NCBI GenBank assembly: GCA_026393975.1
Contig: JAPKZD010000016.1
Location: forward strand, 62,001-126,000
DNA length: 64,000 nt
From: Candidatus Aminicenantota bacterium
Lineage (GTDB): Bacteria; Acidobacteriota; Aminicenantia; Aminicenantales; Saccharicenantaceae
Direction of reading: 5' to 3'
Shown here: one piece after another, positions 8,951 to 11,721 of the stretch
Layout of the letters: every line of letters begins with the position of its first letter
Position numbering within the stretch: the first letter of the stretch is position 1
Translations under genes and position numbers: made by a program
The notes under the pieces: generated by a model
Told to the model about the DNA's origin: nothing
Seen by the model: the letters and a program-made list of their open reading frames with translations, nothing else
Databases searched by the model: none

Positions 8951-9738
8951 CAAACCTCTGGACCCGTTGTAACAACTGCCAGCGGATCCTTTACAAACAA
9001 GATATTCTGGACAACCTCGCCGTTTGTCCGTCCTGCGCTTTCCATTTCCGGATCTCGGCCGAGGAACGGCTGCGGATGCTGTTCGACGACGGCGCCTACG
9101 AGGTCCTCGACGACAACCTCCACGCCGTCGACGCCCTGCACTTCGTCGACACGAAGCCCTACGTCGACCGGATCGCCGAGAACGAAAAGCGGACCGGCCT
9201 CGCCGAGGCCATCGTCACGGCCCGGGGGACGATCGGCGGCGTTCCCGTCTACATCCTGGCCATGGAATTCGGGTTCCTCGGCGGCAGCGTGGCCTCGGTC
9301 GTCGGCGAGAAGATCGCCCGGGCCTGCGAGCGGGCCCTCGAAGACGGCCTGCCGGTGATCATCGTTTCCTGCTCCGGCGGCATGCGCATGCAGGAAGGCA
9401 TGCTCTCGCTCATGCAGATGGCCAAGTCGAGCGCGGCCATCGCCCGCCTCGGGAAAGCCAAGATCCCCTTCATCTCCGTACTGGCCGACCCGACGACGGG
9501 AGGCACGACGGCCAGCTTCGCCATGCTCGGCGACATCAACGTCGCCGAGCCCCAGGCCCTCATCGGCTTCGCCGGTCCCCGCGTCATCGAGCAGACGATC
9601 AAGGAGAAGCTGCCCAAGGGCTTCCAGCGGTCCGAGTTCCTGCTCAGTCACGGCATGATCGACGACATCGTCGAGCGGAAGAACCTGAAGCCCTATCTCG
9701 TCAAGGCTCTCCGCCTCTTCCTCAACCGGCCTCAATGA
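8947..9738 (+). CDS. accD: acetyl-CoA carboxylase carboxyltransferase beta subunit
   Basis: A 263-residue subunit that, with AccA, transfers carboxyl from carboxybiotin to acetyl-CoA to give malonyl-CoA for fatty-acid synthesis. The N-terminal zinc ribbon is C8-x2-C11-x15-C27-x2-C30. The crotonase-like body carries GFLGGSVASVVGEKI, SCSGGMRMQEG and DPTTGGTTASFAMLGD, all typical of AccD. It begins at the ATG overlapping the receiver stop, and its own stop overlaps the folC start (ATGA). accD-folC is a common bacterial order. No accA is in the window. Confidence 0.95.
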   Translation: MTNLWTRCNNCQRILYKQDILDNLAVCPSCAFHFRISAEERLRMLFDDGAYEVLDDNLHAVDALHFVDTKPYVDRIAENEKRTGLAEAIVTARGTIGGVPVYILAMEFGFLGGSVASVVGEKIARACERALEDGLPVIIVSCSGGMRMQEGMLSLMQMAKSSAAIARLGKAKIPFISVLADPTTGGTTASFAMLGDINVAEPQALIGFAGPRVIEQTIKEKLPKGFQRSEFLLSHGMIDDIVERKNLKPYLVKALRLFLNRPQ

Positions 9739-11027
9739 CCTCGTCCGAGTGCCGGGACTACCTCGGCCGCCTCCAGCACTTCGGCATCAAGCTCGGCCTC
9801 GAGAACATCGCGACGCTTTGCCGGGCCCTCGGGAACCCCCAGGACCGTTTCCCGTCCGTCCACGTCGCCGGGACGAACGGCAAGGGCTCGGTTTCGGCCA
9901 TGCTCGCCGAGGTCCTGAGGGCGCAGGGGTTCAGAACGGGCCTCTACACCTCGCCGCACCTCGTCCGGGTCGAGGAACGGGTCCGCGTCGACGGCGCGGC
10001 CATTCCGCCGCGGCGGTTCCGCGATCGGCTGGCGCGGCTCCGGGCGACGATCGACGGTTTGATGGCCGAGGCCCGCCTCGCCTACCATCCGACTTACTTC
10101 GAGGTCCTAACGGCCCTCGCTTTTCTCGAGTTCGCCGAAACGAAGGTGGACGTCGCCGTGCTGGAGGTGGGGATGGGCGGCCGGTTCGACGCGACCAACG
10201 TCGTCTGCCCCCTTGTCTCGGTCATCACGACGATCGCCAAGGACCACGAGAAGCACCTCGGCTCGAGCCTCGAGAAGATCGCCTTCGAGAAGGCCGGGAT
10301 CATCAAGCCCGGCGTCCCGGTCGTCTGCGGCGTCCGGGGAGGAGTGGCTCTTCGGAAGATCCGCCGGGTCGCCCGCGAGCGCGAAGCGCCCTTGATCGAG
10401 GTTTTCGGCCCGGGGAGGACGCTCGAGACCCGGTCCGTCGCCGGGGGCTACCGGTTTCTCTACGCGGGAGAGCGCGGCCGCTACGCTTTTTGCCCCGCCC
10501 TTGCCGGCCGGCATCAGGGACACAATGCCGCCGTCGCCATCGCGACCGCGGAGGTCCTTTCCCGGACCTGGAAGCCCCTCGACAAGGGCAAGATCGTCAA
10601 GGCCGTCCGCGAAACGCGCTGGGAAGGCCGCCTTGAAACCGTCTGCCGGCGACCGCTCGTCCTTCTCGACGGGGCCCACAACGTCGAGGGGGCCGAGGCC
10701 CTTGCCGCTCACGTCCGGGAAATCGTCGGCCGTCCCGTCGTCCTCGTCTTCGCGGCCATGCAGGACAAGGACATCCGCTCCATGACCCGGCTCCTCTTCC
10801 CCCTCTGCGAGACGGTCATCCTGACCCGCGTCCCCTACAAGCGGTCGGCCACGCCGGAAGAGCTTGCCGCCGCCGCTCCCGCTTTCAAGGGCCGAGTTCT
10901 CCTGGAGCCGGACACGCGCAAGGCCGTCCGCCTAGCCCTGGCCGAATCGCGCGGCCGTACTCCCGTCGTTATCGCCGGCTCGCTTTTCCTCATCGGCGAG
11001 GTCAAGCGCCTGCGGCTTTTTGCTTAA
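9735..11027 (+). CDS. folC: folylpolyglutamate synthase / dihydrofolate synthase
   Basis: A 430-residue Mur-ligase-like enzyme that adds glutamate to (dihydro)folates. Motifs are the P-loop HVAGTNGKGSVSAML, YTSPHLVRVEERVRV, the EVGMGGRFDATN loop, ITTIAKDHEKHLG and the C-terminal LLDGAHNVEG. The start ATG overlaps the accD stop by 4 nt. Length and motif order are those of full bifunctional FolC; whether it has the dihydrofolate synthase activity cannot be told by eye. It is the last gene of the operon; the next 274 nt hold a structured element and the ATPase promoter. Confidence 0.93.
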   Translation: MTSSECRDYLGRLQHFGIKLGLENIATLCRALGNPQDRFPSVHVAGTNGKGSVSAMLAEVLRAQGFRTGLYTSPHLVRVEERVRVDGAAIPPRRFRDRLARLRATIDGLMAEARLAYHPTYFEVLTALAFLEFAETKVDVAVLEVGMGGRFDATNVVCPLVSVITTIAKDHEKHLGSSLEKIAFEKAGIIKPGVPVVCGVRGGVALRKIRRVAREREAPLIEVFGPGRTLETRSVAGGYRFLYAGERGRYAFCPALAGRHQGHNAAVAIATAEVLSRTWKPLDKGKIVKAVRETRWEGRLETVCRRPLVLLDGAHNVEGAEALAAHVREIVGRPVVLVFAAMQDKDIRSMTRLLFPLCETVILTRVPYKRSATPEELAAAAPAFKGRVLLEPDTRKAVRLALAESRGRTPVVIAGSLFLIGEVKRLRLFA

Positions 11028-11061
11028 AAGGGGGCCGAGGGGATTATCGGAGTGAGCATAA

Positions 11062-11203
11062 GCGGTGATTTAGCTGGTCAGAAGCCGGACGAGGGCAGTT
11101 TCAGGGGAAACCGCCAAAACGTGTTTGAGTGAGGCGTAGCGTACGCCGAGCGAGTTGTTTTGGTGCTGAGTCCGGCGCGCTGACCGGCGTGTAAAATCAC
11201 CGC
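11062..11203. other. 142-bp nested palindrome, possible structured RNA or MITE
   Basis: The ends pair as GCGGTGATTT (11062-11071) with its complement at 11194-11203. CTGGTCAG (11074-11081) pairs with 11180-11187 with one G-U, and GCCGGAC (11084-11090) pairs perfectly with 11170-11176. Inside are two hairpins: GTTTC/GAAAC (11098-11111, 4-nt loop), and CCAAAAC/GTTTTGG (11114-11120/11157-11163) enclosing GGCGTA/TACGCC with a 3-nt loop (11133-11147). The result is a three-way-junction shape. There is no open reading frame and no T-run for a terminator. It lies between folC and the ATPase promoter. Confidence 0.65.
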
Positions 11204-11239
11204 AGCGAACGATGATGATCCCGGAGGCCCCTCCGGCGA

Positions 11240-11268
11240 TTGAAATTTCGCGGCGGACGTGTTACAGT
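11240..11268 (+). promoter_or_regulatory. promoter of the F-ATPase operon
   Basis: TTGAAA (11240-11245) and TACAGT (11263-11268) are separated by 17 nt. Transcription would start near 11275, about 27 nt before the ATG of the first ATPase gene at 11302. GGGAAAG just upstream of that ATG can act as ribosome-binding site. Confidence 0.55.
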
Positions 11269-11301: not shown

Positions 11302-11721
11302 ATGCTGTCCATTAACGCCACGGCCATCGTCATCTTCCTCATCGTCTGGGTCCTCGTCCTCGTCTTGACCCGCGTCTTCTTCAAGCCCATCCTGCGCATC
11401 CTCGACGAGCGCGCCGGACGGATCGCCAGGGACAAGGCGGCGGCCGCCGCGGCCTTGGGTTCCTACGAGAACGACCTGCGCCGGGTCGAGGAAGGCCTGA
11501 AAGAAGCCCGGGCGGCCGCCGCGGCCATCCGAAGCACGGCGGAAACCGAAGCCTTCAAGGAAAAGAGCCGGCTCGTCCGCGAGGTCCAGGCGGAAGGCCG
11601 GGCCGAGGTCGAGAAGGCCAAGCAGGAGCTTCTCCGCGAGATGGAGGTGCTCAAGAAGGAGCTCGACGCCCGGACCGCGGAGATCGCCGAGACCATCGAG
11701 AAAAGGATCCTTGGGGAATGA
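11302..11721 (+). CDS. atpF: F-type ATP synthase subunit b (first copy, b/b')
   Basis: A 139-residue peripheral-stalk subunit. One N-terminal membrane helix (AIVIFLIVWVLVLVLTRVFF) is followed by a long Ala/Glu/Lys/Arg-rich coiled coil reaching the C-terminus. The ATG at 11302 is preferred over an upstream in-frame ATG (11212) because the membrane helix begins right after it and GGGAAAG lies upstream. The stop overlaps the start of a second b-type gene (ATGA). Two dissimilar b subunits in tandem suggest a b/b' heterodimer stalk, as in phototrophs and several environmental phyla. Confidence 0.85.
   Translation: MLSINATAIVIFLIVWVLVLVLTRVFFKPILRILDERAGRIARDKAAAAAALGSYENDLRRVEEGLKEARAAAAAIRSTAETEAFKEKSRLVREVQAEGRAEVEKAKQELLREMEVLKKELDARTAEIAETIEKRILGE

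Follow-up and report, generated by a model that had tools for sequence, protein, structure and literature searches.

Bacterial palindromic repeats are usually viewed as passive DNA, and for one class, the BIMEs, a role as protein-binding or nucleoid sites has been proposed. HEARO and OMEGA RNAs are multicopy structured elements tied to transposons. The opening lines of the relevant abstracts describe RU-1 (ERIC) and RU-2 as palindromic small mobile sequences of ~100-200 bp, MITE-like, dispersed and intergenic (PMC2229807, PMC2759123), and REPINs and RAYT-linked REPs as dispersed, hairpin-forming and non-autonomous (PMC3116915).

Here we describe an element from a 64,000-nucleotide stretch of a Candidatus Aminicenantota genome (the window). 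Compared by description only, it is like RU-1 (ERIC) and RU-2 in size, MITE-like character and dispersed intergenic placement, but it has a conserved branched core common to several genera, a feature that does not appear in the starts of those abstracts. It shares with REPINs and RAYT-linked REPs, as their abstract presents them, a dispersed, hairpin-forming and non-autonomous character, but it is much larger, no link to a Y1 transposase was found, and its relatives are flanked by duplications. Like HEARO and OMEGA RNAs it is multicopy, structured and transposon-linked, whereas an Rfam search with the window element listed neither of them at E up to 10. The family is not described in the titles or abstract starts of the papers found on Aminicenantes repeats, structured RNAs and insertion sequences, on ISL3 MITEs, or on ERIC-type palindromes.

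Results

Fold and extent of the window element

A sequence-only reading of the window had singled out a 142-bp nested palindrome (11062-11203) before the ATPase operon, with stems pairing its ends, two separate inner hairpins and no terminator T-run, and had judged the pairing too ordered for chance. Folded as RNA, this stretch reached -70.8 kcal/mol, whereas 200 dinucleotide shuffles averaged -48.6 (sd 3.61; z -6.15; 0/200 as low), and folding as DNA gave a z of -5.91. The fold is therefore better than that of shuffled sequence, and homologous copies are present as well (see below). The predicted structure has the proposed shape, with three coaxial outer stems leading to a junction with two hairpins, namely a three-way junction. 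No T-run follows 11203, and the element indeed lies before the ATPase operon, between a folC-like gene and an atpF-like gene in the same direction, or more precisely between the folC-like stop codon and the predicted ATP synthase promoter. The folded stretch is thus real, but its span had been drawn too narrowly: the likeness among 62 aligned copies reaches ~11028-11234, and the extended element (~11030-11231) gains a further outer stem, GGGGCC-GA-GGGATTATC / GATGATCCC-GA-GGCCCC (Table 1).

Rfam yielded no match over the gathering threshold in the whole window and nothing near threshold in the element, and the sole pass on the scanned loci was a tRNA beside the element in L171. Membership in an Rfam family was rejected.

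Table 1. Coordinates of the window element, its parts and neighbors, and of the hairpins flanking Y1 genes at other loci (A3, R1 and R2 are explained in the text)
Feature	Position	Strand	Basis
Whole window-type element	11030-11231	+	R1 match 11028-11234, 213.2 bits, E 5.9e-57; R2 57.5 bits, E 9e-12; 62 aligned copies
Left outer arm GGGGGCC-GAG-GGGATTATC, pairs with 11213-11231, GA facing GA	11030-11048	+	Sequence; A3 helices 1 and 2, double changes in 12/12 pairs
Right outer arm TGATGATCCCGGAGGCCCC	11213-11231	+	Sequence; A3 pair counts
Second stem, 5' side GCGGTGATTT, pairs with 11194-11203	11062-11071	+	Fold; helix 3, 97.6% of cells paired, double changes in 5/6 pairs
Second stem, 3' side AAATCACCGC	11194-11203	+	Sequence; fold; A3 pair counts
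Third and fourth stems, 5' sides GCTGGTCAG and GCCGGAC	11073-11090	+	Fold; A3 helices 4 and 5
Third and fourth stems, 3' sides GTCCGGC and CTGACCGGC	11170-11188	+	Fold; A3 pair counts
First junction hairpin GTTTC-AGGG-GAAAC	11098-11111	+	Fold; A3 helix 6, 99.0% of cells paired
Second junction arm: CGCCAAAACG/TGTTTTGGTG, conserved internal loop TGTTTGAG..GCGAGTT, apical hairpin GGCGT-AGCGT-ACGCC	11112-11165	+	Fold; A3 helices 7 and 8
Predicted sigma-70-type atp promoter TTGAAA-17-TACAGT, outside the element, just downstream	11240-11268	+	Sequence; similar TTG..TA boxes in relatives
Upstream neighbor, folC-like Mur ligase, stop codon 11025-11027	9735-11027	+	Gene call and family match
Downstream neighbor, ATP synthase B subunit (atpF-like)	11302-11721	+	Gene call and family match
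Y1-flanking hairpins	L193 (G000:C17) 1200-1450, 2690-2730; L194 740-795; L192 840-930, 1930-2010		

A dispersed family with modular palindromes

A DNA search of the own genome (G000) found the element at eight places, six over the full query, one over 136 of the 142 bases and one as a fragment. DNA matches occurred in 12 of the 13 congeneric genomes and, within the family, in 12 of 34 genomes, all 12 from the own genus. A covariance model (R1), with 150 candidates scored per genome, matched in 13/13 congeneric genomes and at least 26 times in the own genome. Counting copies, which had been suggested as a way to tell a mobile element from a regulator, thus revealed many scattered copies instead of one per genome before atp. 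A pattern scan of GTDB contigs returned 48 stretches, every one from MAGs titled Candidatus Aminicenantes, Acidobacteria or Acidobacteriota, and the core pattern had no match in viral contigs. With a length of ~200 nt, no transposase gene and many dispersed copies, the window-type family resembles a MITE in these respects.

Outer arms are common to elements with differing inner modules: many R1 matches are ~145 nt long, with the same outer arms round a different inner module, and versions of ~219 nt occur in G007. The outer-arm pattern was present at 40 places in the own genome, against 1 for the control; no autonomous copy was seen among the places read there, where the arms pair round known elements or sit in nested composites with no transposase gene between them. 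In L006, L008, L036, L039 and L186, the right arm is broken at one shared point (AAT/CACCGC) by another palindrome, which begins TAAACCCATTCGACTCCCCGG; in L186 the right arm resumes ~100 bases further on. These junctions suggest site-specific insertion of palindrome into palindrome at AAT/CACCGC. At the folC-atp locus of G006, a hairpin, CCGCTGGGGC..GCCCCAGCGG, takes the place of one inner strand, and it is also found in L049 and L053. Composites of at least 300 bases were observed in L184 and L211-L214, with outer arms enclosing further nested palindromes (e.g. GGAAATATCTTAAGCAAGTCC..).

The fold is conserved on one strand

We aligned 62 of 77 places (alignment A3), omitting 15 with contig ends, N runs, inserted hairpins or strong divergence. 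RNAalifold on the 62 copies gave 55 pairs, 35 with double compensated changes. The covariance search against related genomes that had been proposed returned homologous copies, and the covariation is strong. In the pair count, in which kinship of the rows inflates the shuffle control, 95.3% of the cells were paired (84.2 in shuffles) and 353 cells were double-changed (111.7 in shuffles, with 0/500 shuffles as high); with the partner slid, 30-43% were paired. G-U cells numbered 205 against 35 A-C cells, or 115 against 34 after two GU-dominated pairs were removed. In addition, the + strand was more stable than its complement in 62/62 copies (mean -107.0 vs -88.6); the + strand is the folding strand.

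The internal loops often place GA opposite GA, as CGAG (45/62) or TGAG (10/62) facing CGAG (48/62), from which we infer sheared tandem G-A pairs, and at these GA/GA positions the two arms show a systematic difference. Pairing is retained between copies that occupy one locus: between L002 and L031, with conversion between copies possible, 49 pairs were the same, 2 were double-compensated, 3 were kept with a change on one side and 1 was broken, and 10 of 97 unpaired positions had changed.

Across the class, searched under strict filters with few candidates scored, R1 matched at least 27 of 119 genomes, 10 from the own genus and 17 from other families of the same order. Seventeen of 20 loci from other genera were aligned independently (A5; L226 and L236, which are cut short, and L237, which resembles L222, were omitted) and gave the same three-way junction, again with 55 pairs, 35 of them double-changed. 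Here 92.2% of the cells were paired, 126 were double-changed against 42.1 in shuffles, the + strand was more stable in 17/17 copies, and G-U cells numbered 49 against 22 A-C cells. A second covariance model (R2), built from the A5 elements alone with no row of the window genus, matched the window copy (Table 1) and altogether 10 of the 10 window-type loci submitted, window included (E 2e-15 to 8e-10). It also matched the G007 form (L170) and, more weakly, 6/6 shorter loci (L154, L155, L156, L163, L164 and L173; E 2e-8 to 0.0097), whereas 0/6 transposase control loci matched at E up to 1. Across the phylum, R2 had matches in 9 of 297 genomes, none of them outside the own order. Unpaired letters are also common to the genera, e.g. 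GATTTAGC, TGTYTGAGC..GCGAGTT and GGCGTnAAAAATC, and the letters of the internal loop in the second junction arm are conserved in other genera too.

Judged from these alignments, one strand retains the predicted three-way-junction fold throughout a bacterial order. The covariation exceeds chance, since in both A3 and A5 none of 500 shuffles reached the observed values and slid structures scored far lower, and such strong, strand-specific covariation makes a structured RNA possible.

Genomic context and orientation

The genes round the copies were called with a simple codon-usage gene caller. All 70 of 70 elements lie between genes, and the 59 with both neighbors called comprised 17 in line with both genes (+E+), 16 opposite to both (-E-), 23 between divergent genes (-E+) and 3 between convergent genes (+E-); the elements follow no gene-orientation rule. 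The pattern used for this survey missed the window copy, the context of which was read from the sequence and the gene calls. Of 43 copies that precede a + gene, 26 have a promoter-like match (at least 9/12) in the 80-base stretch at their right end, against 1/24 at gene ends and 5.2% of shuffles, and in 12 of the 26 well-matched copies the -35 box starts within ~4 bases of the nominal right end (right flanks of L004, L005, L007, L203, L130, L149 and others). Among the divergent cases, the right gene start was nearer than the left in 18/23. Translations of the neighbors, read by eye, suggest a varied set of housekeeping genes.

It is common for several species to carry an element at the same locus, in some cases of different subtypes, and at several loci this recurrence is easier to reconcile with hot spots or prolonged retention than with active transposition. 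At one intergenic locus, between glycogen-synthase-like and MutT-like genes, the element lies in opposite orientations in two close species (L005, G000:C18; L011, G006:C64): the flanks of G000 and G006 align in one direction (96.9% over 1446 bases, 91.6% over 1231 bases), whereas the element aligns in reverse. Both arms of the G000 copy at this locus are of the right type, with the systematic arm difference lost, as expected from inversion or conversion between arms.

Two rival explanations were considered. One is a multicopy structured non-coding RNA, host- or element-borne, which would be transcribed from the + strand and would bind protein or act in trans through its junction and loops, with dispersal being secondary. 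We regard this as unlikely. The strand-specific stability and G-U tolerance, the compensated changes in two independent alignments (A3 and A5), the unpaired letters conserved across genera and the pairing kept in situ between L002 and L031, unless conversion between the copies contributed, would all be explained by it; however, Rfam gave no match near threshold, inspection of flanks by eye revealed no conserved promoter ahead of the left end, and the element is flipped at an orthologous locus (L005/L011). Still less probable is a palindrome kept at the DNA level for protein binding or as a nucleoid site, the role suggested for BIMEs. Although the long inverted arms, the intergenic placement and the promoter-like matches near the right end agree with such a site, the arms differ systematically at GA/GA and the + strand is favored in 62/62 copies, and this strand asymmetry counts against it because a duplex site would be strand-symmetric.

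Terminal repeats and the link to ISL3 transposases

Terminal inverted repeats (TIRs) are present in relatives from G119 and G110. The G119 elements are bounded by GGTTCTCTTCCATTTTGTGTGG and its reverse complement, and a 20-base TIR pattern occurs at 29 + 30 places in this genome, against 0 + 0 for the control. In a set of 20 TIR-bounded elements (19 from G119 and 1 from G110), the flanking duplications were perfect over 8 bp in 12, matched at 7 of 8 positions in 5 and at 5 or 6 in 3, whereas the control was perfect in 5 of 380. R1 found the core in 13/20 of these elements; the others, by eye, have the same arms with replaced centers. The ISL3-family transposase gene L238 in G119 (Pfam DDE_Tnp_ISL3, 1.1e-71), the one transposase gene found with a matching end, has the same right terminal repeat as the elements, its left end being cut by the contig edge. 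The sister-genus elements thus combine ends common to an ISL3 transposase gene with 8-bp duplications. In G061, L264 and L272 have TIR-like ends, GGCTTTGTCTCCAAGTG, with duplications of 8-9 bp as read by eye.

The ISL3 genes of G101 and G110 have ends other than the element ends. These genes (L239, G101:C467; L240, G110:C42) are bounded by a different inverted repeat, GGATCATCTCCCGATTAGTTG-like. Its first letters resemble the GGATCATC found in the arms of the window family, a likeness that may be accidental.

The G119 and G110 relatives, with paired ends GGTTCTCTTCC..GGAAGAGAACC, 8-bp duplications and no transposase gene, are like ISL3-family MITEs, as is the sharing of an end with one ISL3 transposase in G119. 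Unlike such MITEs, the body studied here has a three-way junction that covaries, is strand-specific and persists in genera with differing ends, and the window copy has neither these ends nor a duplication. In the own genus, long inverted arms are present, and the outward pairing is copy-specific, with no discrete terminus common to all copies. Target duplications round own-genus copies showed no excess (4/62 vs a shuffled mean of 3.98), and the own genome gave no match to the ISL3 transposase (PF01610), Y1 being the other family searched there. Mobility of the window copy is therefore argued from homology only, and in view of the negative duplication test in its genus we call it a probable MITE descendant, not a MITE. 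The sequence-only reading had listed a miniature mobile element among its options; the scattered copies and the duplications in a sister-genus relative (12/20) agree with this, but in the own genus duplications do not rise above shuffles.

We consider it very improbable that the element is REP-like and moved as single-stranded DNA by a RAYT (Y1) transposase. The own genome has three Y1 transposase matches, and strand-specific hairpins are typical of RAYT/REP systems. However, no element arm was found in common at the three Y1 loci of G000, the Y1 flanks and the element loci have in common only other, smaller hairpins, and the relatives carry ISL3-type TIRs and 8-bp duplications, which REPs are not known to have. 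A RAYT/REP identity was rejected, the Y1 genes of the own genome carrying other hairpins. These RAYT-like genes are flanked by hairpins of their own (GGGGACATGTACC..GGTACGTGTCCCC and others; Table 1), and some of these hairpins recur within the studied elements or close to them.

The atp locus

Upstream of atpF, R1 matched in G000 and G006 only, that is, in 2 of the 7 congeneric genomes with at least 947 upstream bases, and not in G005, G008, G009, G011 or G012 (at least 947 bases each). Outside this count are G003, the contig of which is cut 147 bases upstream of atpF and shows a right-end-like remnant there, G007 (56 bases), G004 (weak match, E 1.8e-5) and three genomes with no atpF match. 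TTG..TA boxes similar to those of the window lie upstream of atpF in G005, G009, G011 and G012, all of which lack the element. Since it is present in 2/7 congeneric upstream regions, the element is not a conserved atp regulator, and one copy per genome before the atp genes, the expectation for a regulator, does not fit either this count or the scattered copies.

The least probable reading of all is that the element acts in cis on folC or the atp operon, as a leader, attenuator or terminator. The placement between folC and the atp genes in the same direction would favor this, but the element ends before the promoter-like boxes at 11240-11268, is followed by no T-run, and elsewhere adjoins unrelated genes, in 23/59 copies divergent ones; the copies hold no constant place in the transcripts of any one class of gene. 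For the atp operon, such a role was rejected on account of the element's position and its absence from most congeneric atp loci.

Discussion

The window element belongs to a dispersed multicopy family with a one-strand three-way junction that covaries inside and outside the genus, and in G119 the same core is enclosed by terminal repeats with 8-bp duplications, one ISL3 transposase gene having the same end. With a probability of roughly 0.7, the window copy is a resident and probably immobile representative of a group of non-autonomous nested-palindrome mobile elements that is specific to the order, MITE-like and ISL3-related. The best reading is that this copy is degenerate and that its family has a conserved single-strand fold.

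In such a history, ISL3-type transposases would have spread the core in trans through its terminal repeats, these repeats would have changed between lineages, and the window genus would have lost both the repeats and the transposase. The remaining copies would persist, exchange inner modules and flip by recombination between arms. The fold is most likely a feature of the element itself and would act either as RNA when the element is read through or as a single-stranded hairpin. Insertion would be tolerated only between genes, often at a promoter edge, as before the atp operon.

Conservation of a strand-specific fold is not required of a MITE body, and the MITE model therefore leaves the strongest feature of the family unexplained. 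A tentative proposal, for which we would give odds well below even, is that the three-way-junction core represents a functional, transposon-borne RNA class of Aminicenantes. Selection would then keep the RNA and not the transposon ends, and the fold and loop letters would outlive repeated changes of the terminal repeats and even the loss of mobility.

The locus also carries a caution, in that strong covariation in a structure ahead of an operon does not by itself make that structure a regulator of the operon. For the family as a whole, a branched one-strand fold with compensated changes appears to be kept across the order while the mobilizing ends change, and the family allows one to ask whether such repeats may carry selected RNA or single-stranded DNA.
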